From: a virus
Virus record (IMG/VR): IMGVR_UViG_3300013132_000162
Coordinates: 1-31,509 of that record
DNA length: 31,509 nt
Strand: one strand, 5' to 3'
A program made the translations under genes and the position numbers. Within the stretch, counting starts at the first letter, position 1, and the number at the start of each line of letters is the position of its first letter. Of this stretch, positions 5,915 through 28,636 are shown piece by piece. A model generated the notes under the pieces. The model was not told where the DNA came from. It did not search any database and was given only the letters and a program-made list of their open reading frames with translations.

Positions 5915-7294
5915 CTATGGTGTTCCGAATGGATTTTTCTCAGAAAAATCAACTATTACGTCGGCTTCGGACTCAATAACATCATTTTGAGCATATGGAT
6001 CAACTAAATTATCTGTTGAATATGTTCTTAGTTTATAAGATGCAGTGGATGCGGATCCCACAATTACATCTCCATTTACAAAATTGCCATTGATTTTATA
6101 TACGTTGAGTTCCCCTGTGGGGGCATTCCAAGATTTAACCAAAGCAGTTGTTCCACTAATACTTCCAGTTACGGTTTCTCCATGGATATAAGTTCCAATT
6201 CCGGAAGAAGTCGGAGATGCAATCGTAATAGTTGGCGTGGTCGTATATCCAGCACCAGCATTTGTGATTCTAATTGCAGTCACTACACCGACAGTATTGA
6301 TATATGCTCTTGCAACAGCATTAATACCACCAGCTGGCGCAGCAGGAATTGTTACAATTGGTGCGGTTGCATATCCACCACCACCACTTGTAATAGTAAT
6401 AACTCCAACAACACCATTTGCTATTGATGCAGTTGCAGCTGCTCCAGCACCACCTCCACCAACAAATACAACTCCTGGAGCAACTGTATATCCATAACCA
6501 GGATTTATAAGTTCAACCCCCTGAATTTTAGTTGATGTTGTACCATTACAATCAACGATGTTATCAATAAATGTGGCAATACCTACTGCTGTCAATCCAC
6601 CAGATGGTGCAGAAGAAATTGCTACTTGTGGAAGCGATGTATATCCACGTCCTCTATTTGTCACTGTAATTAATCTTACAGCACCATTCAATATTCCTGT
6701 AGTTGCCGTTGCAGTTGTTCCAACGCCAACTAATTGTAAAGTTTGTATATATCCGGCAGTTAAAATATTATCATCAATTTCATCAATATTTGTATTAAGT
6801 TCTTCATCTTCATATCTAAACAGTTCACACTTTAATTCATAAACATATGTTTTTTGCAATTGATAAAATGGTTGCTCATGCTCAACAAATTTAATTTCAA
6901 ATAATCTATCACCCAAAGGAAAATATATTAAATCTCCCTCTTTTGGTCTACTTATAAGTTCAATATTAGTTAATTGTTGAGCTAAAGGTGTAATATAAGT
7001 CTCAAACCTTTCTTTTGATATTGTAATTGTTAAATCTGTTAATGGTTGAATACCAAACTTTGAAAGTATAGTTCCCTGTCCTTCATATCCATCATAAGTA
7101 TTTACATAAGCTTCGATTGGATATGCATTATTAAAAGTTGATTCGATGACTTCTTTTATAACACTTTTTTTGGTAATATATTTTCTTGGGATATAGTAAA
7201 TTTCAACGCCATACATGCGAAGTTGTTCGTTAATCAAATCTTGGATTAACGATTGTTCGGTTTTTGATCCTTGAAGAAAAAATGGATTAAGCAT
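5915..7294 (-). CDS. gp14: Neck protein (gp14-like) with repeat insertion
   Basis: A 459-aa protein against 256 aa for T4 gp14. The N-terminal region is clearly gp14 ('LIQDLINEQLRMYGVEIYYI', residues 17-36, then PRKYI), continuing to about 180 ('FPLGDRLFEIKFVEHEQPFY'). Residues 183-365 are an inserted array with four Gly-x-Gly-Tyr repeats (at 214, 264, 304 and 345), typically 'ITxxGxGYTxxPxVxI'. Residues 366-421 are an 'F..GE.VTGS.SGTTA' module. The gp14 C-terminus then resumes (422-459, 'DVIESEADVIVDFSEKNPFG'). gp14 joins gp13 in the neck between head and tail. The start follows the gp13 stop by one nucleotide. Confidence 0.92.
   Translation of the reverse strand: MLNPFFLQGSKTEQSLIQDLINEQLRMYGVEIYYIPRKYITKKSVIKEVIESTFNNAYPIEAYVNTYDGYEGQGTILSKFGIQPLTDLTITISKERFETYITPLAQQLTNIELISRPKEGDLIYFPLGDRLFEIKFVEHEQPFYQLQKTYVYELKCELFRYEDEELNTNIDEIDDNILTAGYIQTLQLVGVGTTATATTGILNGAVRLITVTNRGRGYTSLPQVAISSAPSGGLTAVGIATFIDNIVDCNGTTSTKIQGVELINPGYGYTVAPGVVFVGGGGAGAAATASIANGVVGVITITSGGGGYATAPIVTIPAAPAGGINAVARAYINTVGVVTAIRITNAGAGYTTTPTITIASPTSSGIGTYIHGETVTGSISGTTALVKSWNAPTGELNVYKINGNFVNGDVIVGSASTASYKLRTYSTDNLVDPYAQNDVIESEADVIVDFSEKNPFGTP
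6200..6748 (-). repeat. Four Gly-x-Gly-Tyr repeats in gp14
   Basis: Four degenerate copies of 'ITxxGxGYTxxPxVxI' encode about 180 residues inserted in gp14. The shared cores include 'VTNRGRGYTSLPQVAI', 'INPGYGYTVAPGVVF', 'ITSGGGGYATAPIVTI' and 'ITNAGAGYTTTPTITI'. The same motif recurs in the gp8-like protein and in both giant proteins. Confidence 0.85.
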
Positions 7295-7295
7295 A

Positions 7296-8141
7296 TTATC
7301 CGATCATGTCTAATGGTGGTAACTCATAAGTATTAGACATTCTCTCCATAATGAGGTCTATTTCTCTTTGACCATCTTCATACATTTGTCTTCCGTTCAA
7401 TTCAACACCACCAGGAAGTTTAACACCAGTAAATTTCATCATATTTTGACCCCACTGACGTTTGATCAATGCGGTCAAATATGGTTTGAGGAATGAATCA
7501 TTCCAAACTCTTGAATAGTCATTTGGATCCATTGTTCGGAAACAATCAATGATGATCCAATTTCCTACAGCTGCGCTACCCCAATCAATATCTAAATATA
7601 ATCTATCTTGTCTCTTGTTAAATCTAATTTGCTTTTCTGTAGTCAAAAGAAAATCAATATCTTCAAGATATGTCTTAACCATCGCATACGTTAACAGTTC
7701 AGTTGTGCCCCAATAGTAAATATCATTTAAGAATAACTGATATTTAACACTGAACATGTTGTGAGTAATACTGTTCGTTCCATCAAATTTAAATACCTTA
7801 TTAACACCAATAACTGATGGGTGAACAGGTAAGAAATTTGAATTTTCTTCAAATTTGAATGAAGTGCTATTTCCTATAGTTTCATTTACGGTCGTTGTTG
7901 TAATTCCTACAGAACCTGAAGACCCACCACGAGCTCTTCCCCTATCCAGATCATCCTGAGTGATCTGATATTTCATATATGTTTGATAGACACCATCAAA
8001 GTGTCTTTCTTGGAAATACTGAACTGCATCATCAACAAGATCTTCAATTTGCTCATCAGCAACATTAATTTCTAAAACTGGATAACCCAGTTTTCTTTTG
8101 CAATAATCAATCAGTTCTTGTCTTGTGCTGGGTTGGGCCAT
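7296..8141 (-). CDS. gp13: Neck protein (gp13-like)
   Basis: A 281-aa protein against 309 aa in T4. The N-terminus 'SRQELIDYCKRKLGYPVLEI'-type segment (residues 5-24, with T at 6) is diagnostic, followed by 'EQIEDLVDDAVQYFQERHFD' (30-49). Other gp13-like stretches are 'FLPVHPSVIGVNKVFKF' and 'LYLDIDWGSAAVGNWIIIDC'. It forms the neck ring that seals the portal after packaging, together with gp14. Unlike gp14 and gp15, it carries no inserted module. Its start lies inside the 3' end of the 64-aa gene (31-nt overlap). Confidence 0.93.
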   Translation of the reverse strand: MAQPSTRQELIDYCKRKLGYPVLEINVADEQIEDLVDDAVQYFQERHFDGVYQTYMKYQITQDDLDRGRARGGSSGSVGITTTTVNETIGNSTSFKFEENSNFLPVHPSVIGVNKVFKFDGTNSITHNMFSVKYQLFLNDIYYWGTTELLTYAMVKTYLEDIDFLLTTEKQIRFNKRQDRLYLDIDWGSAAVGNWIIIDCFRTMDPNDYSRVWNDSFLKPYLTALIKRQWGQNMMKFTGVKLPGGVELNGRQMYEDGQREIDLIMERMSNTYELPPLDMIG

Positions 8142-8305
8142 GTGAGTTCAGATAAAACTTCTGCTTGCTTAAGATATAATTTTAAAAACGATTTAGCTAC
8201 ATTTTTTAATTCATCAATATCACTTATACTATCTATATTACGAGCAACCCTTTCATATTCAAAAGATTTATTTAAATCTGTAAGTTTAATACTATTTGGA
8301 TTCAT
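8111..8305 (-). CDS. Small conserved-type helical protein
   Basis: A 64-aa protein starting MNPNSIKLTDLNKSFEYERV. It is predicted mostly helical ('DELKNVAKSFLKLYLKQAEV'), with no signal peptide or membrane segment. It overlaps the upstream gene by 14 nt and gp13 by 31 nt, a compact arrangement that supports a real gene over a chance frame. The family is not recognised; it may be an assembly factor for neighbouring neck proteins. Confidence 0.7.
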   Translation of the reverse strand: MNPNSIKLTDLNKSFEYERVARNIDSISDIDELKNVAKSFLKLYLKQAEVLSELTWPNPAQDKN

Positions 8306-8525
8306 AAGTCAATGCCTTCAGAAGATTTTTAATTTCACCAATATCATCTTTTAATCTATTCATATCATCTTCGAGTCTTTGAAGTTTTTGATTCTCAGAC
8401 TCTTTTACTTGTTTTAAATTTTTATAATTTTGATAGTCACTCATATTGGTGTTTAGGATAGCATTCGTAGAATTATCACGAACTAGGCTAGTATAACCCT
8501 CAACTTTAGAAAATTTTGTATTCAT
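8292..8525 (-). CDS. Small coiled-coil protein
   Basis: A 77-aa protein from ATG at 8525. A GTG at 8531, overlapping the stop of the 2494-aa gene, would add two residues. I prefer the ATG because the sequence then opens MNTKFSKVEGYTSLVRD, typical of a small protein family in marine T4-like phages. Residues about 35-72 are a charged coiled coil ('ENQKLQRLEDDMNRLKDDIG'). The function is unknown. The position between baseplate and neck genes suggests a minor structural or assembly role. Confidence 0.75.
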   Translation of the reverse strand: MNTKFSKVEGYTSLVRDNSTNAILNTNMSDYQNYKNLKQVKESENQKLQRLEDDMNRLKDDIGEIKNLLKALTYESK

Positions 8526-8527
8526 AA

Positions 8528-11500
8528 TCACGCAAGAGCAATGACTCTCAGATCTTTTAATCTAGGTGGATGAGCCATATCCGATGATGATCCAATAAGT
8601 TTGATTGTAAAGTATCTAAAATCGGTCAAATTATTTACAGTGAATGTATATTCTTTATAGTCAAGGTTCTGACTCAGGTTAGCAAGATTATCAGTTTTGG
8701 CAACCTTAACGTCTGAGAGACCATCGTTATTGGCAACATCAATTACATTACCAAGACTATTCAGATTATTCCATCCTGGGAATGGATAGTAAATTGGATT
8801 CTCTGTAGGATCTTTCATAATTGCATATAATGCTCTCAGATCACTGTCTCTGTTCACGTATGCACTTACAATAACTCTGAGAGACGATGCTGGAACTTCA
8901 AGTGCAATTGGATTTGATGCATAAACAAACGCTGAAGGATCATCCGCAAGGGTTGATACTCTTGAATCAGTTGCATAGTCGCTGATTGGACTATTAACTC
9001 TATTGTTGATGAAGATTGCAGATATTCTATCAAGATCAATTACAGGGGAAACATTGCGATCAATAGTACTCATCTTCACATTCATTGTGAATGATTTATT
9101 TCCAGGGAGAGTGGTTAATGCGGAAGATTCATTAATTGATGCAGCTACTATTCTTGGTGAAGATAAGTAATTGTTAGAAGTCAATACGATTGGTTCGTAA
9201 CCAGCATCCATGTAGGATTCTTCACTACCATCAACACTAGATCCTGTTACAGTTCTGATTGATGCAGAAACTGTTGTTGCCAGTAAGTTCATAATCTGAA
9301 TATTGGGTCTAATTACTGAGTATGGGATATTTTGAGTAGCGTATACATTGGGACCACCTGCAGATTTGGTCTGATCAATATAAAGTGGTGGGAACGATGT
9401 TGCAGAACTTCTGTTAACTTGTCCTTGTGGAAGAGATGCACTGTTTCCTGCAGAACTTGTATCAATTTTCAGGTAATAATAATCCAAATCATATGTTCTG
9501 GTTGATGAGAAACCAACATCCTGCAGAGTGTGAGTCTTATTAATTCTTCTCAGAGAAATTCCATTCGTTTCATATTTAAATACTGGAGTTCCAGCAGCAT
9601 ATGTAAACGATTTTGTCTGATCAATTTGTCTGGTAATACCAGTCAGTGTGTTGCCAACAACTCCTTCATAAGCAATGATTTCATCCTCAATTTGGATATA
9701 CCCAGGATTTGTAGATGCAACGCTTACATTTTCAAATGTTTCAAATCCGCTTGCATTTGTAAGCACAATACTACCCGAACTTTCTTTTGCATATGCAGTA
9801 TTCAATGTCGTTGGAGTTGAATCAGAATAAACTCCAGAAATAGCAACGTTGTTATTCAGAGCGTACATACCATGGTTCTTGTGATTTACCTTGATATGTA
9901 ATCCATCAGATGGTTCTGAATCCACAGTAACATAACTTACTGTTACTCCACCACCGTTCAGACTTGTTACTCCTATTCCAGAAGCAACGTAAGTGATTGT
10001 GCTTCCAGTTCCTGTTGTAAATGTACCTTGAACATTATCCAAAATAATTTCTTTAATGCCAGTAATTTGTGGAACGGAGAGTCTTAAGTTAGATCCAAGA
10101 GTGCTTCCACTAAGGCTCGAAACGCTAAGAACATCACCAACACGATATCCAGATCCACCAGCATTGATTGTTGCAGCTGTGGCAACGTTATTGGAAATGG
10201 TGATATTTGCGGTTGCGTTAACACCAGATCCAGTTACATTTGTCAGGGAAACGTTGTTGAATGAACCGTTAGAATAACCAATACCAGCGTTTGTAATTGT
10301 CAGATTTCCTGTGACGGATCCAGCAGATCCAACATAATTACCAGTTGCATTTGAGTTCAACTGACCAACAGTTGTGCCGACGATAAAGTTTGTACTTTTT
10401 ACTGTTGTTCCTAGTCCAACACGAACTTTTCTTGAATTCATTTCAAGAGGATTGACCAGAAGATTTGCAATCTGCTTGTTGCCAATATTTAACTGTGGAT
10501 TATAGAAATTGATGTCTCCTGTTTGATTTGTAAATACTGCCTGATAGAGAGTAAACTTAAGATCTTCATATTGGCTTGGAGTCCAAGTTGATGCATTTTG
10601 AGACTTAAATAATGATCCTAAGAGTGGTTGCTGAGTTACAAAAATTTGTTGTGATTCTGGTAATCCAGCAGTTGTTCTATCAACTTCACCAAGTCTAGAA
10701 ATCCAAACTTGATATGAAGTTGATTCTGAAAGAAGAACAACAGCATGTTCTTCTCCACCTTTCAGATACACTGGTGATGGGAATGTAACTGTGGTAACAG
10801 TAGTTCCATCTTCTGAGATATTAACATCTTTTGGATCAATGCTTACTTCGCTGAATGGATATACAGTTCCTGTTGGTAATCCAAGAGACATTGGACGAAG
10901 TTGAACCGTAACTGGAAGAACATCATCTTTTGATCTGAAATACAAATCAATCTTGGTTACAAATAATCCATTCCCTGCAGGAAGATTAAACGATTGTGCT
11001 AATGGATCTTGGGGCGGCGCTGGAGCTTCTACTATAATCGTAGTTTCTATTACATTAGTGATGAATACTGGTTGAACTCTAGTTGAACTTGAAGATGTAG
11101 TAGAATTTGATTGGGATCTTGTATCTGATAATGATGTTGATGTAAACTGAGGACTTCTGACAGAAGTAATAGTTTCTTGAACATTATTCAGAAGACCTTG
11201 TGCATAATAATTGACTTCACCTTCAGTATATACAGATCCTGGTACTAAAGAGTTTGTTCTATCATTGGTCAGTTTAAATGTTTTAATTCCAGTCTCAAAT
11301 GTTGGATTTGTAGGTACGTTTGGATTGGGAATTAAGAATGATCCAATGATTGTTCCAAGATTATCCGACACCAATCTGACATCTGATACCGTAGCTTCAG
11401 CGCCACTTGTCAATCCTTTTAATTTTAATCCTGGCAGAACTCTTCCGAAGAACTGTCCTTGAACTTGTTCCGAAAGACTTGCAATATCTACATTAAGAAG

Positions 11501-16012: not shown

Positions 16013-16018
16013 GATTTC

Positions 16019-17572
16019 TTAGAATTGCAAAATTACCTTGATATCTTCTTTTTGGCTAGACGATCTTGTAACAGAGGGTCTATTATCTACATGAATGATG
16101 TTTCCAGAATACTTTTGAACTTCTGGACTAGACACACCATTAATAAAGTTCTGTCCAAAATAATATGTCCTACTATTTATTGAGGTAGATATACCATTGT
16201 AATTTGTATCAATAGATAATCCAGCACTTCCACCTTGAATTATAGTAGTGCCACCAACACCAGGAGATGATGTGAATCTATTCATATTAAATCCATAAAT
16301 TGGTGTGGAGTTTTTAGTACCATCACTATTAAATCCAACAAGAGTTCTATCTTGCCAGTATTTTAAAACTCCAGTATTTTGATCATATGAAATGACTCTA
16401 CCAACAGCAGTAGATGCTACTCCTACTGTTTGGGTAACTAATGCATCGGCAATAAAAGTTGCAGTGCTATATCCAGTACCAACAAGTTTCAATGCATAAA
16501 CTGCACTTGCCTTATCTTCAGTAAGGATAAAACTTGAATTGTAAACCAATGGATTTTCAATTACACCAACTCTTGAAATTTGATTTCCTGTTATAAAATC
16601 TGGATTTTGTGTGTCGTTTTCAATTCTCGCGTAAAGTGCAACTCTATTAGCCCCAAGTTCTCTATAGATATCTGCTCCATGTCCACCTTTTGGAGGAATA
16701 ATTACGTCAAAGTTTGGTTGAGTAGTTCCTACAGGTACGTTTCCTGCAACTAAATCAACTGTTCCATAGGTATAACTAGATCCACCATTGGATATTGTAA
16801 TAGATTCTACTTTAGAATTATTGTTGATGATGATTGTTGCTTCGGCACCAATCCCATCTCCTTTAATTGGAACTCTAGTGTAGGTTGTGTTTGCAGTTCC
16901 AATGCCAACACCACGATTGGTAATCGTTACAATTTTGATCTGTCCGCTTGTAGCGGCATTGTTTCTTACTGTTGAGTTTGTATCACTAGTTCCCCAATCT
17001 TTTGGAACAGGAATAAAATTTGAAGTTTCAAACTTGATAATATCGCTAGGAGCAATTGTATACAGATATTTCCAAATATATCCATCACCACTTGTACCTG
17101 CGGATCTTGGTTCTAAATCTGTAAAGATTGGCTCATCAAGAGAAGGTCTTCCTTCTGGGTTTTCTGGATTTGTTCCATTTTGTAAACAGATATAAACTCT
17201 GTAGTCCGAGTTTACGACATAATAATTTGCAGCATATAAACTAGTTGCATCAGATGGTTTTGATGTATTAGTTCTACTTATATCATGTCTATACATGTCA
17301 TAAGTAATTCCCGATGTCCAGGTTATCTTTCTAATAATTTGTTTAATATTTTCTGTCGATATTTTTTTGACTGCAATTGCAGTATCCCAATATGAATTCT
17401 CTTCACTAAAATTATCCTTTGGTGCTGGAGGATTTGTGTCCCACGTCGTACTATATTCTGACGCATTGGGAAGTCCTACAAAAACATAATATGAGTTGTC
17501 TGAAGAACTAGCTACAGAAACAAAATTCTTAGCACTCAATATTCTAAATTGATCTGTTATAATAGCAGCCAT
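16019..17572 (-). CDS. gp8: Baseplate wedge protein (gp8-like)
   Basis: A 517-aa protein; T4 gp8 is 334 aa. The N-terminal half is gp8-like: 'TDQFRILSAKNFVSVASSSD', 'YWDTAIAVKKIS', 'YDMYRHDISRTN', 'YRVYICLQNGTNPENPEGRP' and 'YIWKYLYTIAPSDIIKFET' (163-182). Residues about 210-280 are an insertion with degenerate Gly-x-Gly-Tyr repeats ('VESITISNGGSSYTYGTVDL'). 'PPKGGHGADIYRELGANRVA' (293-312) is a gp8 hallmark, and the C-terminus 'NIIHVDNRPSVTRSSSQKED' then 'IKVILQF' is typical. gp8 is part of the wedge with gp6, gp7 and gp25. The start lies 18 nt after the giant upstream gene. Confidence 0.92.
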   Translation of the reverse strand: MAAIITDQFRILSAKNFVSVASSSDNSYYVFVGLPNASEYSTTWDTNPPAPKDNFSEENSYWDTAIAVKKISTENIKQIIRKITWTSGITYDMYRHDISRTNTSKPSDATSLYAANYYVVNSDYRVYICLQNGTNPENPEGRPSLDEPIFTDLEPRSAGTSGDGYIWKYLYTIAPSDIIKFETSNFIPVPKDWGTSDTNSTVRNNAATSGQIKIVTITNRGVGIGTANTTYTRVPIKGDGIGAEATIIINNNSKVESITISNGGSSYTYGTVDLVAGNVPVGTTQPNFDVIIPPKGGHGADIYRELGANRVALYARIENDTQNPDFITGNQISRVGVIENPLVYNSSFILTEDKASAVYALKLVGTGYSTATFIADALVTQTVGVASTAVGRVISYDQNTGVLKYWQDRTLVGFNSDGTKNSTPIYGFNMNRFTSSPGVGGTTIIQGGSAGLSIDTNYNGISTSINSRTYYFGQNFINGVSSPEVQKYSGNIIHVDNRPSVTRSSSQKEDIKVILQF

Positions 17573-17587
17573 TTGGAGTTTTTTATG

Positions 17588-17595
17588 TATTTATG
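17588..17595 (-). promoter_or_regulatory. Late-promoter-like CATAAATA before gp8
   Basis: CATAAATA on the minus strand overlaps the stop codon of the 3681-aa gene and lies about 15 nt upstream of the gp8 ATG (17572). It is the only clear late-type motif between core baseplate genes after gp25. It could boost gp8 relative to the 11-kb gene before it. Confidence 0.4.
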
Positions 17596-20500
17596 TAGTA
17601 TAATCTCGGTATTTCAGAGGAAGTAATCTTTGAACTGTTGGAGAACTTGAAACTCCAGCAATACCATTGATATAATTTGTAAATGCTTTTGGATATACTC
17701 TATTCATAGTAGAAAGTCTTCCCCAACTATATTCGCCATAGAATGAACTAAATCCAAGTCCTATAAGATTATTATATGAAGTAAGACTTATGGTTACTTT
17801 TGCAACATAAGTCAATCCAATACCAGGGACAGCAGTTTGTGCAATCGAAACTGCAACAGCCTTATAAATGTTATCCAAACAAGTTGTTCCAATACCTACG
17901 GTTCCACCGGTTTCATCTTTTGCTGTTACTCCATTTCCAACATTTGAATTCTTAACTACGAAATAATATCCAGTTTGAATTCCACTGACACCGGTTGTGG
18001 CAATACCGACAGTATTGATATTTAAATCTCTTAGATAAGAATTCTGTGGAATAAAGAAGTCAAATACTAATCCCGTTGTTGCAACAGAAACTGATGTAGT
18101 TTTAATTCCTGTAATAATACCAAAGTCGCCTTCAAATGTAACATTAGATATTTCTTCTTTAGTAACTTTTGGACTTTGAATTAAAACTAATGGCGGATTT
18201 GTTGATGTATACCCATAACCAATTGCAGAAACTCCAATAGATGTTACAACACCATTCGTTATGGTTGCAGAACCAGAAGCTCTATATGTTGATCCAAGAC
18301 CAACTGGATTTGAAACAACCACGTCTGGTGCCGAAGTATATCCATAACCACCATCACTGATTACAAACGAAGTAATTGTTCCAGCGGCAGAAACAACTGC
18401 AGTTGCAGCTGCTCCAGAAACTGCATCTTGAGATGTAATAGTAATTTTCTTGTAGTTTGTACTTCCAGTAGTATTTTCTTTTTGTGAATCAAAGAAAGTC
18501 TTTGCATTTTCCACAAATACTACTGAAGATGTAATTCCAAGACTATTAATTATATTTGTTGATGGTTGAACAAATGGTTCATAAAGAACTCTGGTTTTTC
18601 CAACTTCTAATCCATCAATAATTTTATCTTCAGTTTGATAGCATAGTGTAACAGGTCTTACATAGGTCTCTCCAAATGTAAGTCCAGGATTAAAATAAGT
18701 ATTCGTATTTACATAATCACTTGCAGGAATACTTGTAACAAGTCTTTCATCTTCAGTTAAGAAAATTGAATCATCAATTAATTGTAAACCGTCACCTACT
18801 TCAATTGGTTCTAAAACATCGACTAAAGCAACATCAACATTACTAGTGCCTTTATAGAAGAGAATTTTTGAAGTATCTCCAGATTTTGGTGGTTCTGGGA
18901 ATGTAATTAAATTACCTCCACGGAAAATATATCCAGATCCAGGTACTTGTAAAACATCATTAATAAACACTAATAACGTTGCCTGAATATCAATATTTGA
19001 TCCAGGTCTTGTTCTAATAGATGTAAGAGCTTCATTTATTTTAATTTGAAAGATTTTTCTTTCTCCATCAAATAAAGCATCAAATGGATCAATAACCTGT
19101 AAATCGCCAATAGACCAACCAGCAAAAGAGTCTGTATGAGTTCTATCAACAGTAAGTCTGAATTCTTGATAGGATAGAGTTGTATTTGTTGGAATACCAA
19201 CTGTACCACCGATTGCAACGGTAAGAGTTTCACCTTGACCATATCCATAGCCACTGTTTCTAACTTCAAAATTGACAATGCTTGAACCTTGGCCCACCAC
19301 AATATCAACTTTTGCACCACTTCCAATTCCAGGAATTGAAGATGAACTATAAATGAGTGGAATATTGCTATAAGAAAGTGGAGAATCAATAAAGACAACT
19401 GGAGGATTTGATCTAGTATATCCAATTCCGGGATTCGTAATCGCAATACTTACGACGCGACCATTTTGAACTGCTGCGGTTCCAATAAATTGAATATTTG
19501 GAGTTCTTGTACTTGAAGTTCCAACACCAACTCTTACAGTCTGCGCTCCAGAACGATAACCAGAGCCGCTGTTGCCAATACTAATTGATTGAATTGTGCC
19601 AGCAATAGAAACAACCGCAGTTCCTCCAGCTGAAACTAAAGGTTGGAATCCAAATCCAGCAGTTGAACCAACAGAAACAAGTATACCTTTCCTTGGCAAT
19701 CCTGAGGCATTAATATCATATGATTGTGATGCATTACCAATGAACGAGATTGTAGTAATTCCAGAAGACTCTGAAAGACTATAATTACCAGTCACCGTAA
19801 TTGGAGATGTATTTCTGGATGGTTGTTGGAAAATTTGATTTACCAATATCACCGCATTGCTAGTGCTTACACCAGTAATATTTGATGCATTAGATTTAAG
19901 GATAAAACTGGTATTAACTCCAGTAAATGATTCTGAAATATCATCAAATATTTTATTGTAAAAATATGCATCAGAAGAAGAATTTACATCTCCCGATCTT
20001 AAGAAGACTCTACCACTAAATGTGGATCCAGTTATCAGTCCAACATAATCCTGTTCATCCGCTCTACTTGATGGATTTGTAAATGGTATTTGCCCCCATG
20101 GAGAATTTGCAAAGTAAATTGTATTTGCATCGATATTATAATTTCCCGATAATTTAGTAACTACGGTTCCTACTTGGTGCGTAGCAATTCCAGTACCAAG
20201 CCATCCTCTTTGAACAATAGCAACATTAGTTGCACCAAATCCCAAAGTATCAAGTCGCATAATTTCGTTATCAATCTTTATTAAATCTCCACTGAATATT
20301 GACGTAATTCCGGATAGAGTAACAATATTTGTTATTGCTTCTACATATGTTCCAACAGTTGTTGTTATTGAAGTGCCAACGATTGGTGATTGTATTACGT
20401 TATCAATTGCAATCATCGATCTAGCATTTTGATTCGATCCTTTAACAATATGTGAAGTTCCAATTCCAACACTGGTTATGTCTAAGAACTTTGGTGGACT

Positions 20501-23500
20501 TGATAAAGCATCAGCAGCTGATCCAGCAAACTTTAGATATAAGTTATCTGTTTTATATGCATATAAAGTTCTTGGAAGTTTATCAGTAACTCCAATTCCA
20601 GAAATTGATGTGGTTGCAATTCCAATGGCATTGGCACTATTGGTATCAGAACCACCATATTCATAATAGATTTTTTCACCAGTTACAAAGAAATGTTCAG
20701 GAATCTGTAATCTATCATTTGCTAAATCTACAATATTAGTAGATGTTCCATCAAAATATCTTTCAAAAATTGGTCGTTGTCTATACGTCAAACCAAAATT
20801 TTTCTTAGAAGAAATAGCAGTTCCTTCATAGAGTGCATGACCACCATCTACAGCAGCATTATTTAAAGATATTTCTCTAGGATAATCATGAGCATGTAGT
20901 GCTGTAATTGCTTCTTGATATACTCTGACTTGTGTTTGTATATTTGCTCTTGGCGTAAATTTGAGTACCGTATCATCACCAACTCGATCAACTGTGAAAT
21001 CTCCAAGAGAACCATTAGTTTGAATATACCCAAACTCTGATATGTATGCATTAGATTGATTTTTTAATACAACCATTTCAGAAATCTGATACTCATTATT
21101 TGTAAAATCTTCGACAACACCAATATAATAGGCTGCATCATGATCTGATGGGAACGATGCGACATTCACTGCTGTTGGAGAACCCGATGAAGCAATGCTT
21201 GTAAAACCAGATCCAACGAATCCGTCAAAGATGTATGATGTTCCAACACCAACTGAAGATGAGTTTGCAATTGAAACACGAATCGTATTTACAAAATAGT
21301 TTGTTGAAAGACCCGCGTATGGAATAAGATCAACATTTAAATTAGATCCTGAAAGATATGAATAATATGTGCCAATTCCTGGAGAACCATATGAAGAGAG
21401 ACTTCCAGTTGTTAACTGCCCATAATCCATATATGAAACATCAGTTCCATTATGTACAACACTGAGTTCATCAACTTCATAGTAGGATCCATCTGTTGCC
21501 CCAATTACAACATAAATTTTTGATCCTCTATAAGTAGATGCGATTCCAACAACGGTTGTGGCAGTTGATGTTCCTGAAGGAATAGTTACACTCGATGATG
21601 CAATACTTACAACATCACCAAGGTTTAATTGCCCAACGGACGTTGTAAGATCGCTGACAGCAAGAGCTGAGAATGAAACATTATAACTATTCTCTTCATA
21701 ATAATTTGGATGAAATTCTAATACACCCTCAGAACCAAAAACACTAAAGTCAAACGCTCCAAGATCATCATCATTATAAATTTTTCCATACTGATTCAAA
21801 TACCCATAATTATCGTCATGCAATAATGAAACAAGAAGAATTTGATTTTGATCAGCATAAGCCAAATCATTTACAAAAGTCACATACTTTTTATATCTTG
21901 CAGTAGATAATGTAAAGACATCGATATTTGAATATTTTGTAGATCTTGGATTGCTATTAAATTCTGGTGAAAGATCATCAATCATCAGAACTCTATTACC
22001 AATAGACTCCAAATAATCTTGAAGAATCGCAGATTCAAAAATTATTTGATTAGATGCATAATTTGCTCCAATTATTATGTTATTTTCTCTAGCGAGATCA
22101 AAGTCAGTTTTACAATGTAAATTAAGTGAAGAATCTAATTCAACAATTACATTAGATTCAGTTCCAACAGTTGATCCTATACCTACACCCACAGGTAAAG
22201 ATTTTACTTGAAGATCTGCAAACTTTTTAAATCCTACTGGATGATTTAATTCGTCAACACTACTATCCCAGGTTTCAAGTGGAATATTTGTTTTAACTGA
22301 ATATGAAAAATATTGGTAATAATCGTTGTCATGAATTTTTTGAAGATCATTACTCAAAAATCCAGTTTCTTTTTGCCAACCTTTTTTGACAACTGAAGAT
22401 GATTTAACATCATAAATTGAATTAAAATTCAATACGCTTACAATTTCAGCTTGAGTTTTAGATGATTCTCCAGATACAACTTCCCCAGAATTAAAATCTA
22501 TATTTGAAGAAACTTTTAATAGTGAATTTTTATTATTCCATCTTACAACTTCACCAGATGCAGATTGTGAATTAACAATTTCACCTTCTAAGAAATCATT
22601 GGTCTTAAATTCTGGTACAAATATTGGAAGATCTTTTTCTGGTATAATTCTACCAGCAGAATTAATTGAATCATAATTTCCTGGTATTTCTCCAGTTTTA
22701 AGTAATCCAGAAATATTATAAGAAACTGTTCCTCCAATACCTCCAATATTTGGATCTAAATTCGCAATTGTAAAGAATCGATATCCATAGCTCTCTGAGT
22801 TGTATCCTTTAGCAGTAGAACCAATTCCAACACTAATATTTTCAATTAAAATTCTATCACCAATTGCAAATGGATAAGATCCAGCATCACTGAAACTAGA
22901 ACCTAAGGTAACCACAACATCTTGAGATGCTGGTATAAATCTTATAGTGCTAATACCAACACCATTTCCATTGTTTACTGGTCGAATAACTGAAGTTTCT
23001 TTATCGAGGTTATACGCATTACTTAAAATAGTAACATTCTTGTCACCTAAGTTGTATCTCAGATTTGTTTGTGAATTTACTTCCCCTGTTAATTCATCAA
23101 CAACAATTAAATCTGGAGCAACATTATAGTTTCTACCCACAGACGCAATTCCAATAGATTCAAATGAATATAAATCTTTGACTTGTAAAATTTGTGGAAG
23201 ATTTGCTGTTGGTCTCAAACTTAAATCTGATGGATAATCAAATCCAATATCTTGCAATTCAATTTTATTAATTGAACCAATACTTGTTCCATATGAAACT
23301 AAGATATCTCCAGTACCAATTCCACTACTTACATAAGAAACTTTTGGTAAAGTTTTATATGAAAGTCCTTTGGAAATTAAATCAATACCAACGATAGATC
23401 CATAGACTTGAGTAGAATTAGTAGAGTATTTTAATTCTCCATCATTTTGTGTGTAGAGAGCGTTCTCTGGATAATCTTTGATTGTATATGTGAACTGTGT

Positions 23501-26500
23501 TCCGCCCGCAGAAATAACTTCATAATTTCCAGAGTATAAACTCGTGATAACTCCGGAAAGGACAGAAACATTTGCATAATCTGCAGACTGAAGATTATGA
23601 GTTGATGCTGTAGATACAGTTACTCGATTTAATGTTGTAGTTCCATCTAAAGTATTGTCATAATTTGTTGTAAGGCTATGAGTATTGCCAAGTCCAATAT
23701 TTGTAAAATAAACTAGTGATGCTGTGGTTGCAATTCCAACAAAGGAACCTGTTGTTCCTAACCCAACCTTAACTGTAGAAATTCCTAATAAATTATCACC
23801 AAGACGTGCAGCATAGACAACACTATCATTTGCAAGTTGATAACTGCTTATTCCATCTGTTGAAATGGAAACAGCATTCCCGCCATTGGCATTATAGATT
23901 AACTGAGTTCCAGTTTCAATCTCATGTTTTGGTAACCATAATGCCTGAGTAGGGATTGTGATTTGAGTCAGACCTGCTCCAGGATTTGTAAATGTCAGAG
24001 TATATCCAATTCCTGGGCCAGCAGTTGTTCCTAAACCAACAGATTCTTTTGGATCAAAATAAATTTGCTTATCTAATTTGAAATTATAAGTTGAAGTTGA
24101 AATACCAAATGGTAATATAAACTTTCTTGGTTTTTCTGTAATCGCAATTCCGGCGGAAATTGTAGATATTCCTTGAGTTTCATTATAACTACGTCTTACT
24201 CGAATTCTAGACGAAACAGTATCTACATTTAAGACCTTTACTTGCTCTGCAAGAATTTGATAAACATCATTCTCTTTGATCGTAACTAAATTACCAGATA
24301 CATTAAAATAAGTTACCAATCCAGTATATCCAGTCGAACCAATTCCAGTAGTTACTAAAAGTTCATTTGCAATTGATGTAATTTTTCCACTCGTAGTAAT
24401 TCCAGAAGCTGTGAATGTGATGGTCTCACGATTTAAATAATTATGTGGATTTGGCGAATAACCAACAAAATTCTTAGCATCAGCAATTGGAATCATTTGG
24501 ACATTAGTTAATGTAGAAGTAGCAATTCCAACACTTGTTACTTGTTTTCCTCCTACAATCGAAACTTTTGCGGAAATGCCAAATCCACCAGTAGTTTCGT
24601 TATCAAATACAATTTTATCACCTACTTGATAGTTTGATCCACCTGTAGTAATTCCAATCGAGTCAATACCAGATTTTGTTGTACTCTTGATCAAAGATAA
24701 CTGTTTTTTGATTTTATTTGAATCTAAAACGTAGTCATAATAACTTCTAGATTTTGTGAGATGATATGGATGAGTGTTTCTACTCCAATTAGTCTCGTTA
24801 ATGTTTATCTCATCTTGATTTGAACTTGCAAGATAATTAAATGATATTGGATTTGACTTATAGGTATTTCCTATTACATATGGGAATACTGGTCTTCTAT
24901 AAGATTGGAATATTCCTGTGGAATCATTTATTGAGTTTATAGTGCAGAAGTATGCGTATGTACCATCTGGATATTCTGGAGTTGAACCATATTTTGCATT
25001 ACTTGCATCAAGATCTCCAGTATTTGTAAATTGATAATCTTCTACGAAAAATCCTAAGGGATATCTTAGAATATTGGGTCTTACAGAACTTGAAACTTGC
25101 GTATATCCGGAAACCATTCTCTTAACAGAACCATTAGAATCAAAACCATATGGCCCATATATTGGATTTCCATCATAAGCCCAACCAATAATTGGTGAGT
25201 GGGAAGATGAATTGATTTCAGATCCTCCAGATGTTCTTAAATCTGGAACATAAATTGGTCTTTCGCCAACCGTTTCTTTTGCAAGTGATGAAGATCTCAA
25301 TCCTCTAGATGCATAAGCATGACCATATTGCAATCCGTATGATTCGGTTTTAGACTTTAATAAAATGCCGTCATCAAGATTAATCTGATTAAAGTATAAT
25401 AATCTTTCTACTTCATTTACTCTCCAAGATTTTATTTCTGCTTCAAACTGAGCACCAGATCCTGCTGCAATAATATCAATATTTGTACCTTCGGAATATC
25501 CAAGACCTTCAAAAATTACTTTTACATCTACTAATTGTCCATTTTGAACAACTGGAGATAATACGGCACCAGATCCTGTTGAACTATTGATAATCAGATT
25601 TGGTGACGAATTATAGTCATGCCCAGGTTTTGTAACAAAAACTTGCTTGATTTTTCCATTTGAAATAACTGGTATTACTTCTGCCCCAGATCCACTATTC
25701 AGAGAGAATGTTGGTTGCCTATTATAATTGATAATCTCTTCACTTCCATATTCTACACCAGAAGAAGTGAGAGAAACTGACGTAATATTTCCTCTAAAGA
25801 TGGGATTTAAGATGGCCTCAAAACTTTGTCCAGTTAAGGTTGAAATTCCAATTCTACTCTTGATTGTAAGTAGAATTGTAGATCCACTACTTACATATCC
25901 GCTACCACCATTAATAACAGAAATGGTTCCAATTTTCTTTTTCTTTGCTGTGGAAAGCAATTTATGATTTCCAGCACCATATGATGTCAAATCAACGGTA
26001 TTAATTCCAACGGCAGAATCTGTAAAGGTTTTGTGTAATTTAATAGTGAATCCATCCTGAACCTTGACGTAGTATTTTGCACCTGTTGTAAGTCCACTTA
26101 CGTTTGTTCCGCCCTGAGTATCATAGATTACTTCTTCCGAATCTCGGAACTTATGGTAGGAAGAGAAACCAATCGTATCATTCGTTGTATTGACCTGTAA
26201 TGCCCCTGCGGATGAGTTGAAGGATGAAGAGTGGTCAAACTCGATTAAATTAGGTTTGACCAAAACTCCAGATCCACCTCCACCGGCAATTGTAATAATT
26301 GGATCTTCCAGATAATCAAATCCGGGATCAATGACATCGACTCGGACTAAAGATCCAGTTACAGTGCAAATGCCAGTTGCTCCAAAACCAATTGCATCTG
26401 CAATATGAAGAGTTGGAGGGTTGATAACATCATAATCACTTCCAGATGCAGTTGGAACTACCTGCTGCAGTGGACCATAAAAGATAATGTCGGTTGTTTT

Positions 26501-28636
26501 GTAGTTGACTAATTCAACTCCATTGATAAACATTCCCGTTGTTCCAACAGGAGTATCATATGATGACCCGTCACTTTCTGCTGGAGATATTTTACGAATT
26601 AATTTTTGTGGCTCTACTTGTTTTGCATTTAAAAGATCATCACTAAAATCATATAAGAAGAATACATTATTTGATACGGTTCCACTTACAGAAATATAAT
26701 TTTCCGTAAAGATATTTTCTCTGCTTCTTGCAATACTAATCGTAGTATTGTTTACTCTTTTAACAAAATATATGCCGGGATGTAAGTCTAATTTATTTGT
26801 AGTATCTGTTGGATTATAAACAATCGCATTTCCAGTTATAAATCCATGCGTTCCAATTATTAACTCAGTTCCTGAGAAAGATCCCGAGAAAGTAATTGAT
26901 CGATCATTAATTGCTAATGGATTATTATAATATGTTGGGAGTGAGTTAGATGCAACATATAAAGTATCATTCAGATCTGTATAAACATTCTGAACATTAG
27001 TAGTATATTTTGTTAAACTTGGATAATTTGTTGTAGATACTTTGGAAACGTTTTTCCTTACGGTATAAAAAACGCTTGTATTTAATTGTCCTTGGCCAGT
27101 TATATTAAAGGATAACTTACTATCAAATCCAGAAATACTTGATGAATATACTGAATTAATATTTTCTGGAATAATTTCACCATAGAATTCTCTGCTGTTT
27201 GATGAAATTAAAGTAATTGAATCTCCAATTACAAAATCGTGTTCATCAAATAAATTGACTCGATAAGTATATGTTGAGACATCTACTAACTGAATTGATT
27301 TTACATCATATCTTACTGATACATTGAAAAACCAATTGTTTGCTTTTGCAGAAGATAAGTTTGAACCAAGACTTTCTATTTCAATTCTTTCATCTTTTTC
27401 ATAATAATAAGTTTTATCTAAAATTTTAAGATCTGATAATACGCCCGTTACTCTAACCTTTACGACGTTATTTGTAGAAATGCCGACATGTCCATATGCA
27501 TATGAATCCAACACAACTTCTTTTTGTGATGGAATTTCTGAAGTAATATTGGAGCAACCAAGAAACTGGTTTAGTGTTTTTTCCTGATAAGTTACTGAAA
27601 ACTCAGTATCTGTAGCTTGATTTAAAATGAGGGTTCCTGATTGTGGAAATCCAACTGTCGAGTCAACATCAAGAGTTGTAACACCGATTCCTGCAGTTGT
27701 TACAACTCTTGTTTTTGGATGAATTGCAAATGTGCCATATGCCTGGAAATCTGTGTCTTGATCATGATCAAGACTGATAATAAAATACTCTTTTTGCCCT
27801 CTAAGAATTCTTTCTACTTTTGAAACAGTTCCTTTTGCAGGTTCAAAGAATCCACCATCTTGATATAACGTAGATCCTACAAGATCATTTGGATCTCCTA
27901 TAATTTTTTCTACTACCAGATCTTTTGTGATATAATAACGAGCATCGGATGGTTGAATCAAATAATCGCTTGGTTTGATGACCGAAGCTTCAGTATCTCC
28001 ATACAAAGCATAGAACAGAATTCTAAATGAATTATCCGTTCCCTTTGATGAGTAAAAATCTTTTACTTGCTTAAGAAATAAGGATTCATTCAGTTGAGAA
28101 TATAGATCTCTTCCATCAAATCCTGGAGAAATTTGCTTTTTAACTTTGAGCAGAAATTCTTTTAAGAAAAGAACACTTAAATTTGATACAATAGACTCGT
28201 CTGCATGTTCATCGACATTTGTGTCGGCAAATACAAGTTGATCTACAGATGTTGAGTCTTGATATGCTGTTGTTCCAGAAAATCCCCTCTTACAATTTAC
28301 AAATGAAGTAGAAGTCTTTGATTCATATGTAATGATTTCATTATCAATCAGAAGTAAACCATATGAGTCTGGAAATCCTGTAGTAGATACGACATTAATC
28401 GTCGTATCGTAAAATTCTACAAAAGAACTTAAAGTAGTAGAGTCAATTAAGCTTACAAGACTATCTAATTTTACATATTGATCAATATTCTGTAGAATAT
28501 CAGATGGCCCACTTTGAAAATCTAAGGATCTATAATATTGCGATAAAAATTCAACAAGAAGAGGAAATTCTTCTCTAACGTATGCTGGAACCTGATTTTC
28601 AACGATTAAACTTGTCTTGACTCTAAATTCTGACAT
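17591..28636 (-). CDS. Giant multidomain baseplate protein in the gp7 position
   Basis: An uninterrupted 3681-codon frame, starting one nucleotide after the gp6 stop. T4 places gp7 (1032 aa) between gp6 and gp8, so this is a positional gp7 candidate; I see no decisive sequence match. Residues 1-60 ('VPAYVREEFPLLVEFLSQYY') plus 190-212 ('KQVKDFYSSKGTDNSFRILF') are the likely conserved baseplate-binding head. The rest is modular. 'IDNEIITYES...CKRGFSG' modules lie at about 77-125, 309-362 and 2770-2830. At least 14 Gly-x-Gly-Tyr-type repeats lie at about 730-1340, 1740-1845, 2980-3150 and 3420-3485. A YHYH-like domain occupies about 1140-1265. A triplicated beta domain occupies about 2250-2582. 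No catalytic motif, signal peptide or membrane segment is evident. It is probably a wedge backbone with large surface decorations. Confidence 0.85.
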   Translation of the reverse strand: MSEFRVKTSLIVENQVPAYVREEFPLLVEFLSQYYRSLDFQSGPSDILQNIDQYVKLDSLVSLIDSTTLSSFVEFYDTTINVVSTTGFPDSYGLLLIDNEIITYESKTSTSFVNCKRGFSGTTAYQDSTSVDQLVFADTNVDEHADESIVSNLSVLFLKEFLLKVKKQISPGFDGRDLYSQLNESLFLKQVKDFYSSKGTDNSFRILFYALYGDTEASVIKPSDYLIQPSDARYYITKDLVVEKIIGDPNDLVGSTLYQDGGFFEPAKGTVSKVERILRGQKEYFIISLDHDQDTDFQAYGTFAIHPKTRVVTTAGIGVTTLDVDSTVGFPQSGTLILNQATDTEFSVTYQEKTLNQFLGCSNITSEIPSQKEVVLDSYAYGHVGISTNNVVKVRVTGVLSDLKILDKTYYYEKDERIEIESLGSNLSSAKANNWFFNVSVRYDVKSIQLVDVSTYTYRVNLFDEHDFVIGDSITLISSNSREFYGEIIPENINSVYSSSISGFDSKLSFNITGQGQLNTSVFYTVRKNVSKVSTTNYPSLTKYTTNVQNVYTDLNDTLYVASNSLPTYYNNPLAINDRSITFSGSFSGTELIIGTHGFITGNAIVYNPTDTTNKLDLHPGIYFVKRVNNTTISIARSRENIFTENYISVSGTVSNNVFFLYDFSDDLLNAKQVEPQKLIRKISPAESDGSSYDTPVGTTGMFINGVELVNYKTTDIIFYGPLQQVVPTASGSDYDVINPPTLHIADAIGFGATGICTVTGSLVRVDVIDPGFDYLEDPIITIAGGGGSGVLVKPNLIEFDHSSSFNSSAGALQVNTTNDTIGFSSYHKFRDSEEVIYDTQGGTNVSGLTTGAKYYVKVQDGFTIKLHKTFTDSAVGINTVDLTSYGAGNHKLLSTAKKKKIGTISVINGGSGYVSSGSTILLTIKSRIGISTLTGQSFEAILNPIFRGNITSVSLTSSGVEYGSEEIINYNRQPTFSLNSGSGAEVIPVISNGKIKQVFVTKPGHDYNSSPNLIINSSTGSGAVLSPVVQNGQLVDVKVIFEGLGYSEGTNIDIIAAGSGAQFEAEIKSWRVNEVERLLYFNQINLDDGILLKSKTESYGLQYGHAYASRGLRSSSLAKETVGERPIYVPDLRTSGGSEINSSSHSPIIGWAYDGNPIYGPYGFDSNGSVKRMVSGYTQVSSSVRPNILRYPLGFFVEDYQFTNTGDLDASNAKYGSTPEYPDGTYAYFCTINSINDSTGIFQSYRRPVFPYVIGNTYKSNPISFNYLASSNQDEININETNWSRNTHPYHLTKSRSYYDYVLDSNKIKKQLSLIKSTTKSGIDSIGITTGGSNYQVGDKIVFDNETTGGFGISAKVSIVGGKQVTSVGIATSTLTNVQMIPIADAKNFVGYSPNPHNYLNRETITFTASGITTSGKITSIANELLVTTGIGSTGYTGLVTYFNVSGNLVTIKENDVYQILAEQVKVLNVDTVSSRIRVRRSYNETQGISTISAGIAITEKPRKFILPFGISTSTYNFKLDKQIYFDPKESVGLGTTAGPGIGYTLTFTNPGAGLTQITIPTQALWLPKHEIETGTQLIYNANGGNAVSISTDGISSYQLANDSVVYAARLGDNLLGISTVKVGLGTTGSFVGIATTASLVYFTNIGLGNTHSLTTNYDNTLDGTTTLNRVTVSTASTHNLQSADYANVSVLSGVITSLYSGNYEVISAGGTQFTYTIKDYPENALYTQNDGELKYSTNSTQVYGSIVGIDLISKGLSYKTLPKVSYVSSGIGTGDILVSYGTSIGSINKIELQDIGFDYPSDLSLRPTANLPQILQVKDLYSFESIGIASVGRNYNVAPDLIVVDELTGEVNSQTNLRYNLGDKNVTILSNAYNLDKETSVIRPVNNGNGVGISTIRFIPASQDVVVTLGSSFSDAGSYPFAIGDRILIENISVGIGSTAKGYNSESYGYRFFTIANLDPNIGGIGGTVSYNISGLLKTGEIPGNYDSINSAGRIIPEKDLPIFVPEFKTNDFLEGEIVNSQSASGEVVRWNNKNSLLKVSSNIDFNSGEVVSGESSKTQAEIVSVLNFNSIYDVKSSSVVKKGWQKETGFLSNDLQKIHDNDYYQYFSYSVKTNIPLETWDSSVDELNHPVGFKKFADLQVKSLPVGVGIGSTVGTESNVIVELDSSLNLHCKTDFDLARENNIIIGANYASNQIIFESAILQDYLESIGNRVLMIDDLSPEFNSNPRSTKYSNIDVFTLSTARYKKYVTFVNDLAYADQNQILLVSLLHDDNYGYLNQYGKIYNDDDLGAFDFSVFGSEGVLEFHPNYYEENSYNVSFSALAVSDLTTSVGQLNLGDVVSIASSSVTIPSGTSTATTVVGIASTYRGSKIYVVIGATDGSYYEVDELSVVHNGTDVSYMDYGQLTTGSLSSYGSPGIGTYYSYLSGSNLNVDLIPYAGLSTNYFVNTIRVSIANSSSVGVGTSYIFDGFVGSGFTSIASSGSPTAVNVASFPSDHDAAYYIGVVEDFTNNEYQISEMVVLKNQSNAYISEFGYIQTNGSLGDFTVDRVGDDTVLKFTPRANIQTQVRVYQEAITALHAHDYPREISLNNAAVDGGHALYEGTAISSKKNFGLTYRQRPIFERYFDGTSTNIVDLANDRLQIPEHFFVTGEKIYYEYGGSDTNSANAIGIATTSISGIGVTDKLPRTLYAYKTDNLYLKFAGSAADALSSPPKFLDITSVGIGTSHIVKGSNQNARSMIAIDNVIQSPIVGTSITTTVGTYVEAITNIVTLSGITSIFSGDLIKIDNEIMRLDTLGFGATNVAIVQRGWLGTGIATHQVGTVVTKLSGNYNIDANTIYFANSPWGQIPFTNPSSRADEQDYVGLITGSTFSGRVFLRSGDVNSSSDAYFYNKIFDDISESFTGVNTSFILKSNASNITGVSTSNAVILVNQIFQQPSRNTSPITVTGNYSLSESSGITTISFIGNASQSYDINASGLPRKGILVSVGSTAGFGFQPLVSAGGTAVVSIAGTIQSISIGNSGSGYRSGAQTVRVGVGTSSTRTPNIQFIGTAAVQNGRVVSIAITNPGIGYTRSNPPVVFIDSPLSYSNIPLIYSSSSIPGIGSGAKVDIVVGQGSSIVNFEVRNSGYGYGQGETLTVAIGGTVGIPTNTTLSYQEFRLTVDRTHTDSFAGWSIGDLQVIDPFDALFDGERKIFQIKINEALTSIRTRPGSNIDIQATLLVFINDVLQVPGSGYIFRGGNLITFPEPPKSGDTSKILFYKGTSNVDVALVDVLEPIEVGDGLQLIDDSIFLTEDERLVTSIPASDYVNTNTYFNPGLTFGETYVRPVTLCYQTEDKIIDGLEVGKTRVLYEPFVQPSTNIINSLGITSSVVFVENAKTFFDSQKENTTGSTNYKKITITSQDAVSGAAATAVVSAAGTITSFVISDGGYGYTSAPDVVVSNPVGLGSTYRASGSATITNGVVTSIGVSAIGYGYTSTNPPLVLIQSPKVTKEEISNVTFEGDFGIITGIKTTSVSVATTGLVFDFFIPQNSYLRDLNINTVGIATTGVSGIQTGYYFVVKNSNVGNGVTAKDETGGTVGIGTTCLDNIYKAVAVSIAQTAVPGIGLTYVAKVTISLTSYNNLIGLGFSSFYGEYSWGRLSTMNRVYPKAFTNYINGIAGVSSSPTVQRLLPLKYRDYTT
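20880..21880 (-). repeat. Triplicated beta domain inside the giant gene
   Basis: Three diverged tandem copies of a roughly 110-residue unit cover about residues 2250-2582. Each has a '..Y.I.ELSVLHN'-type strand, a tyrosine-rich turn ('YLNQYGKIYNDDDLGAFDFS', 'YMDYGQLTTGSLSSYG', 'YISEFGYIQTNGSLGDFTVD') and an 'L.F.P' strand ('VLEFHPN', 'NVDLIPY', 'VLKFTPR'). Confidence 0.6.
24827..25219 (-). other. YHYH-like domain inside the giant gene
   Basis: Residues about 1140-1265 contain 'HSPIIGWAYDGNPIYGPYGF', then 'PEYPDGTYAYFCTI' and 'PVFPYVIGNTYK'. This spacing and these motifs are characteristic of the C-terminal half of YHYH-domain proteins. The YHYH tetrapeptide itself is not seen upstream. The biochemical role of the family is not settled. 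Confidence 0.65.

Follow-up and report, generated by a model that had tools for sequence, protein, structure and literature searches.

Repeat-bearing genes in the structural cluster

The stretch of DNA analysed here (the window, 31,509 nucleotides in full) is a 31.5-kb virus record that carries, on its minus strand, the structural gene cluster of a cyanophage-type T4-like phage. The gene order, gp25-gp6-gp7-gp8-DUF4815-gp13-gp14-gp15-gp16, is that of the Kyanoviridae structural cluster and is the same in P-SSM2, P-TIM68, S-SM2, Bellamy and other phages, and the closest annotated gp14 proteins are those of Synechococcus and Prochlorococcus phages. The gp14 gene (5915-7294, minus strand) encodes a head-closure or neck protein of 459 aa, identified by PF11649, by the PHROG family head closure Hc2 and by T4 gp14 chains in the PDB; residues 2-176 form the T4 gp14 core (PF11649, E 7.3e-32). 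The baseplate wedge protein in the gp7 position (17591-28636, minus strand), assigned from the gp25-gp6-gp7-gp8 synteny with P-SSM2, S-SM2 and others, has 3681 aa in the window versus 1032 in T4, with a weak Pfam match (PF23786) at its N-terminus. A protein of 2494 aa in the same cluster is the DUF4815 or ‘VrlC’ protein.

These three proteins and gp8 contain copies of a short repeat, hereafter the GxGY unit, with the consensus G-x-[IV]-x-x-[IV]-x-[IV]-T-[ND]-x-G-x-G-Y-T-x-x-P-x-[VI]-x-[IF]; all repeat features described in this section lie on the minus strand. The four units that the first-pass annotation had read in gp14 were all recovered by a hidden Markov model (HMM) of the unit (21-37 bits). 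They occupy an insert at aa 183-365 (6200-6748; AF2 pLDDT mostly 85-94) and comprise unit 1 (6605-6685, 34.3 bits), unit 2 (6452-6529, 31.1 bits), unit 3 (6338-6415, 21.0 bits) and unit 4 (6209-6289, 36.6 bits). In the alignment with T4 gp14, the insert follows residue ~176 and precedes the conserved C-terminal ‘DFxExNPFG’ tail. The gp8 insert (aa 196-296; 16685-16987) begins after residue ~195 in the alignment with T4 gp8 and holds two units (13.6 and 6.7 bits) where two to three had been proposed. Both arrays thus lie, as first described, between segments that match the T4 homologues.

The gp7-position protein holds the largest number of units. Array 1 (aa 714-1076; 25409-26497; AF2 pLDDT mostly 89-96) consists of about six units, three of which exceed 6 bits, and is followed by a weak pair at aa 1747-1810 (23207-23398) that is recognised by pattern only and falls below the HMM threshold. 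Array 3 (aa 3010-3160; 19157-19609) has two clear units (18.5 and 25.3 bits) and one seen by eye, and array 4 (aa 3410-3492; 18161-18409) has two clear units (26.3 and 16.9 bits). In total, seven gp7 units score at least 6 bits, three more sites are indicated by the AF2 strand pattern and two or three others were seen by eye; the initial count of at least 14 units was too high, and about 10-13 are supportable. In the DUF4815 protein, the two expected units correspond to a degenerate pair at aa 1895-1965 (10118-10330), which lies below the unit-HMM threshold and is supported by profile-to-profile comparison. The alignment also suggested a possible vestigial unit in T4 gp14 (‘VVVNNRGKSFESSP’), which scored below 3 bits and was dropped.

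Detection of the GxGY unit and homology of its copies

The unit HMM was seeded with ten units from the window and then iterated, the seeds coming in part from proteins that were later counted, and was searched against 350 ORFs drawn from the window and from 14 loci in 13 phages, T4 among them, using the reversed ORFs as decoys. At a threshold of at least 6 bits, 172 units were found as against 1 in the reversed ORFs, and at 8 bits or more, 148 as against 0, placing the repeat in the four window proteins far above chance. In the turn, one G is invariant, a further G occurs at 78% and a Y at 97%; a P follows four residues on at 92%, and V and I alternate on both sides.

Because the HMM seeds came partly from the same proteins, we compared profiles built from alignments of environmental homologues by hhalign as an independent check. 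The repeat regions of gp14 and gp8 and the three of gp7 were all linked to one another at 82-99.4% probability, compared with 8% for the best reversed decoy and none above 20% for non-repeat regions of the same proteins; these values come from short units, from alignments that are shallow in places (Neff about 2-3) and from phage sets that are not independent. The gp14 repeats matched those of gp8 (94.9%, E 4.3e-8) and, within gp7, array 1 (98.1%, E 7.4e-14), array 3 (96.2%) and array 4 (98.8%, E 4.5e-17). The DUF4815-protein pair joined the other repeat regions at 64-93%, the leading values being 93.4% with the gp7 C-terminal array profile gp7repC1, 92.5% with the gp8 repeats and 83.7% with the gp14 repeats.

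A resemblance of this kind could arise by convergence, glycine-rich beta proteins looking alike without common origin, and the unit is both short and biased in composition. Against this, reversed decoys of equal composition scored almost nothing in either the HMM or the hhalign comparison, the alignments between repeat regions extended to as many as 149 columns, and the gp14-gp7 alignment ran past the last unit into a common flank, ‘A.(V/I)KSW’. The G-x-G-Y-T-x-x-P spacing is moreover the same in viral and bacterial copies. We regard convergence as a very improbable explanation. Profile comparison shows that the GxGY copies in the four window proteins are homologous, and the earlier proposal that one module family was added to proteins of different ancestry is borne out by the hhalign links and, for gp14 and gp8, by the T4 alignments.

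Neither Pfam nor NCBIfam has an entry for the unit itself, and the literature searched contained no relevant mention of the motif letters. Six PHROG profiles (460, 701, 708, 2885, 5342 and 19630), annotated as head closure, virion structural, baseplate and tail fibre, include the unit, and this accounts for the matches of gp14 to baseplate and fibre profiles; unlike the unit, the PHROG profiles are clusters of whole proteins. Judged against Pfam, NCBIfam, the PDB and the literature covered, we claim the GxGY module as unnamed and new.

Predicted fold and a relative in a solved tailspike

AF2 models of gp14 and of gp7 residues 690-1260 were built separately, from alignments of 49 and 44 sequences, respectively, and pLDDT over the repeats was mostly 85-96. 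In both models, the unit is predicted to be all-beta and about 40 residues long, with a long strand ‘GxVxxIxITN’, a turn ‘GxGYTxxP’, a short strand ‘xVTI’ and a third strand past a Gly-rich loop. The array period is 36-47 aa. Arrays of several units in the phage set comprised 2, 4 or 6 units in 45 cases and an odd number in 2, a ratio that overstates the independent evidence since the sequences are related. Because arrays are mostly even-numbered, two units probably form one domain, a small Ig-like beta domain as in D3* of the Dpo31 tailspike described below.

Single-sequence searches of the PDB found no relative of the repeat, and across the PDB searches the T4 gp14 core was the one structure found for these cyanophage proteins. 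Among the PDB matches that Foldseek listed, those of the gp14 model covered the T4 gp14 core and none covered the repeat part of either model; the gp7 model had no significant match. Against BFVD, the gp7 model gave 62 matches at E <= 0.001, mainly cyanophage structural proteins and proteins of uncultured Caudovirales; their TM-scores were mostly low and gp14 proteins were not in the top 50, and these matches do not amount to proof of a common fold for gp14. The Pfam Ig-like families Big, FN3 and I-set gave no match to gp14, gp7, gp8 or the DUF4815 protein up to E 0.1.

Alignment profiles searched against the PDB did find one solved protein, the Dpo31 tailspike of marine phage Carin-1 (PDB 28lx, 28mg, 8ck1), at E 2.4e-4 with the gp14 profile and 0.009 with a unit-pair profile. 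The match spans residues 393-514 or 444-505, that is, in or across domain D3* (434-536), and the unit HMM detects two units in Dpo31 (13.0 and 17.4 bits); Dpo31 was absent from the top 50 Foldseek PDB matches of the gp14 and gp7 models. D3* is described as an Ig-like insertion that projects out of the beta-helix core and bears a distant similarity to sugar-binding domains (PMC13317679). On these modest E-values, D3* appears by sequence to be a relative of the GxGY module, most of it corresponding to two consecutive units. As in gp14 and gp8, where the units are inserted between two parts of the host protein, D3* is an insertion in a virion protein, its protrusion being a feature of Dpo31. Dpo31 differs in having a single pair within a trimeric beta-helix depolymerase of a podovirus, compared with the arrays in neck and baseplate proteins here, and its authors assign an Ig-like fold, not a repeat family (PMC13317679).

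Age and inheritance of the insertions

Units nearly always had their closest counterparts in the same gene of another phage and not in other genes of their own genome (39 of 40 units in gp14, 86 of 91 in gp7 and 13 of 14 in gp8), and 23 of 27 gp14 units matched the same ordinal position in other phages. All 49 environmental gp14 homologues contained 3-4 units. In a tree of the gp14 core, phages with four units grouped into one clade (support 98/99), P-HM1 excepted. Two units are present in the gp14 of Syn9 and ACG-2014d, and none in that of S-CAM3, Melnitz, HTVC008M, Ackermannviridae and T4-type phages (T4, RB49), so the conserved gp14 core occurs with 0, 2 or 4 units and the module on it is optional. 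Since the units are positionally orthologous and gp14 unit number follows the gp14 tree, sequence comparison shows the insertions to be old and vertically inherited.

The first-pass annotation had pictured gene-to-gene spread within the structural region, and recent spread or gene conversion would indeed leave similar units in different genes of one genome. One perfect match of 20 nt, at homologous repeat positions of gp14 (6428-6447) and gp7 (18398-18417), has this appearance and is borderline, an identity of at least 20 nt arising in 1 of 60 synonymous-codon shuffles. The same-gene similarity described above runs the other way, and a permutation test found no homogenisation of units within genomes (p 0.10 for best scores, 0.45 for means). 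The gp14 units were also on average nearer to bacterial units than to gp7 units, a comparison that is biased since the bacterial loci were fetched with a gp14 query. With one 20-nt identity, no elevated within-genome similarity and a clade-structured gp14 count, recent gene conversion was rejected and spread as a recent or ongoing local process is improbable. Because pelagiphage HTVC008M has units in gp8 and gp7 and none in gp14, the gp14 array was probably added later than the gp8 and gp7 units, a second point that leans towards movement between genes.

Occurrence in bacteria

A single-protein genome scan with the gp14 repeats as query retrieved 13 bacterial loci with 1-26 units per protein, at profile E-values down to 1.5e-19. 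The carriers include PilY1 tip adhesins, a T9SS-sorted pectinesterase, a multicopper oxidase and a DUF2589 protein. In the phylum of one carrier, 3 of 150 sampled genomes matched, the centre genome included. Given this frequency, in a bacterial sample drawn with the gp14 query, the GxGY module is sporadic in bacteria, and it is regular in these phages. The module is not confined to this structural region: it recurs in a lambda-like tail tube protein and among the secreted proteins of bacteria. The gp14 repeats had no match in plasmids. A tblastn search with the consensus as query gave no match in phages or plasmids, probably owing to BLAST low-complexity masking, and absence is not concluded from it.

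Two of the non-cyanophage copies may be noted individually. The multicopper oxidase-like protein (L345:841-8577) carries 26 GxGY units within one chain; the lambda-like tail tube protein of P. putida (L352:3662-4390) has two.

Candidate role on the virion

Taken together, we consider it fairly probable that the GxGY unit belongs to an unnamed beta decoration module, inserted long ago, vertically inherited and likely to make weak contact with glycans. The domains would have been inserted long ago in the cyanophage lineage at flexible or exposed places of gp14, gp7, gp8 and the DUF4815 protein and then passed down vertically, and, with at least two other common beta modules, they would contribute to the bulk of these proteins. 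Their most likely job would be surface decoration through weak glycan contact with the cell envelope or exopolysaccharide; alternatively, they may act as a scaffold that carries lectin-like domains. Roles of this sort have been put forward for the Ig-like domains of phages. Such a role fits because the module is optional, has been inserted into several proteins, virion and secreted, that are unrelated to one another, is composed of beta strands only and protrudes in its sole solved relative; by this analogy surface exposure and glycan contact of the units are the most likely interpretation. The D3* match, a ConA/LamG-like domain in S-SSM7 gp14 and the occurrence in PilY1 and secreted proteins all point to a resemblance to surface decoration modules. 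The carbohydrate binding suggested initially is a candidate role, with the similarity of D3* to sugar-binding domains and the LamG neighbour as indirect pointers.

Comparable systems are known in phages. The Ig-like, FN3 and Big_2 decoration domains of tailed phages, reviewed for tail tubes, are likewise optional beta domains, added to neck and tail proteins that differ in ancestry, and weak contact with surface carbohydrates has been proposed, not proven, for them (PMC8718954); unlike those domains, the repeat has no match in the Ig-like, Big and FN3 Pfam families and here the domain is apparently built from two short units. In crAss-like phages, a phage protein carries a putative carbohydrate-binding domain, BACON, in tandem copies (PMC6949934); this is a different family, and the window proteins had no BACON match in Pfam. 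Domain shuffling among tail and neck proteins is presented as general in the passages covered of a study of phage domain mosaicism (PMC10684548), and those passages do not describe the GxGY repeat or these cyanophage proteins.

The main rival to decoration is an assembly interface, in which the units would extend the contacts between subunits and lend stability to neck and baseplate, those of gp14 lengthening a C-terminal arm that docks on gp15. The C-terminal region of T4 gp14 (aa 178-256) is flexible and, upon tail docking, contacts gp15 extensively (PMC12270204). The insert in the cyanophage protein begins near the corresponding position, and because of these arm contacts it may face the tail and not the solvent. 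In addition, gp15 bears an added module (module c, see below) in the window and in seven other four-unit phages, and is short (262-273 aa, annotated coordinates) in the 0- or 2-unit phages Syn9, ACG-2014d, S-CAM3, Melnitz and HTVC008M. P-SSM2, however, combines four gp14 units with a short gp15, and the module is also found in bacterial secreted proteins and the protruding D3*, where no such interface exists. By analogy with T4, an interface role of the gp14 copy is a serious reading, if a rather unlikely one, and we rank decoration ahead of it because the unit recurs where a head-tail joint is absent.

The decoration reading can be extended, more doubtfully still, to the view that the unit represents an unnamed glycan-contact domain family common to bacterial adhesins and phage virions, which, with other shuffled beta modules, might coat the whole neck and baseplate of marine T4-like phages as a low-affinity adhesive surface that helps to set host adsorption. 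The cyanophage gp7, gp14 and DUF4815 proteins are large and mostly unexplained, and giving the repeat a name and a structural anchor would account for some of their bulk, would correct annotations that cross between neck and baseplate owing to common modules, and would yield a testable hypothesis on the encounter of abundant ocean phages with host envelopes. The repeat also connects a phage module with PilY1-type and secreted proteins of bacteria.

Other modules in the same proteins

At least two further modules accompany the GxGY units. Module b, ‘GExxTGxxSG’, occupies gp14 aa 366-428 (6011-6199, minus strand), and its HMM also matches gp7, gp8 and DUF4815 homologues; S-CAM3 gp14 has module b without GxGY units. 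The motif occurs weakly in the window gp7 (~22427-22609) and in strong copies in HTVC008M gp7 and Syn9 DUF4815 homologues, and in the Syn9 DUF4815 homologue it occupies the place that the GxGY pair holds in others. Module c, ‘IDNE...RG’, is present at 4922-5158 in gp15, at 28247-28441 and 20141-20368 in gp7 and at 9563-9703 in the DUF4815 protein. In gp15 it forms a C-terminal extension, which is absent from the gp15 of P-SSM2 and Syn9.

In the gp14 of S-SSM7 (L007:36704-38992, 762 aa), a LamG/ConA-like domain (Laminin_G_3, PF13385, E 7.6e-6, just below the Pfam cut-off) lies among the GxGY units. In the window, a YHYH domain (PF14240, E 6.9e-20; gp7 aa 1141-1234, 24935-25216) directly follows GxGY array 1; YHYH domains have been noted in pelagimyophage and cyanophage structural proteins (PMC7029224). 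Between GxGY units at gp7 ~aa 800-890 (~25967-26239) is a repeat-like segment, ‘NTIGFS.YHKFRD.E.VIY..GG..V.GL..G..YYV...DG..IKLH’, of which relatives have an extra similar copy as an insertion. Lastly, the gp7-position protein of HTVC008M (L016:33435-36485) is annotated as ‘head closure Hc2’, a label that is probably a misannotation caused by modules in common with gp14.
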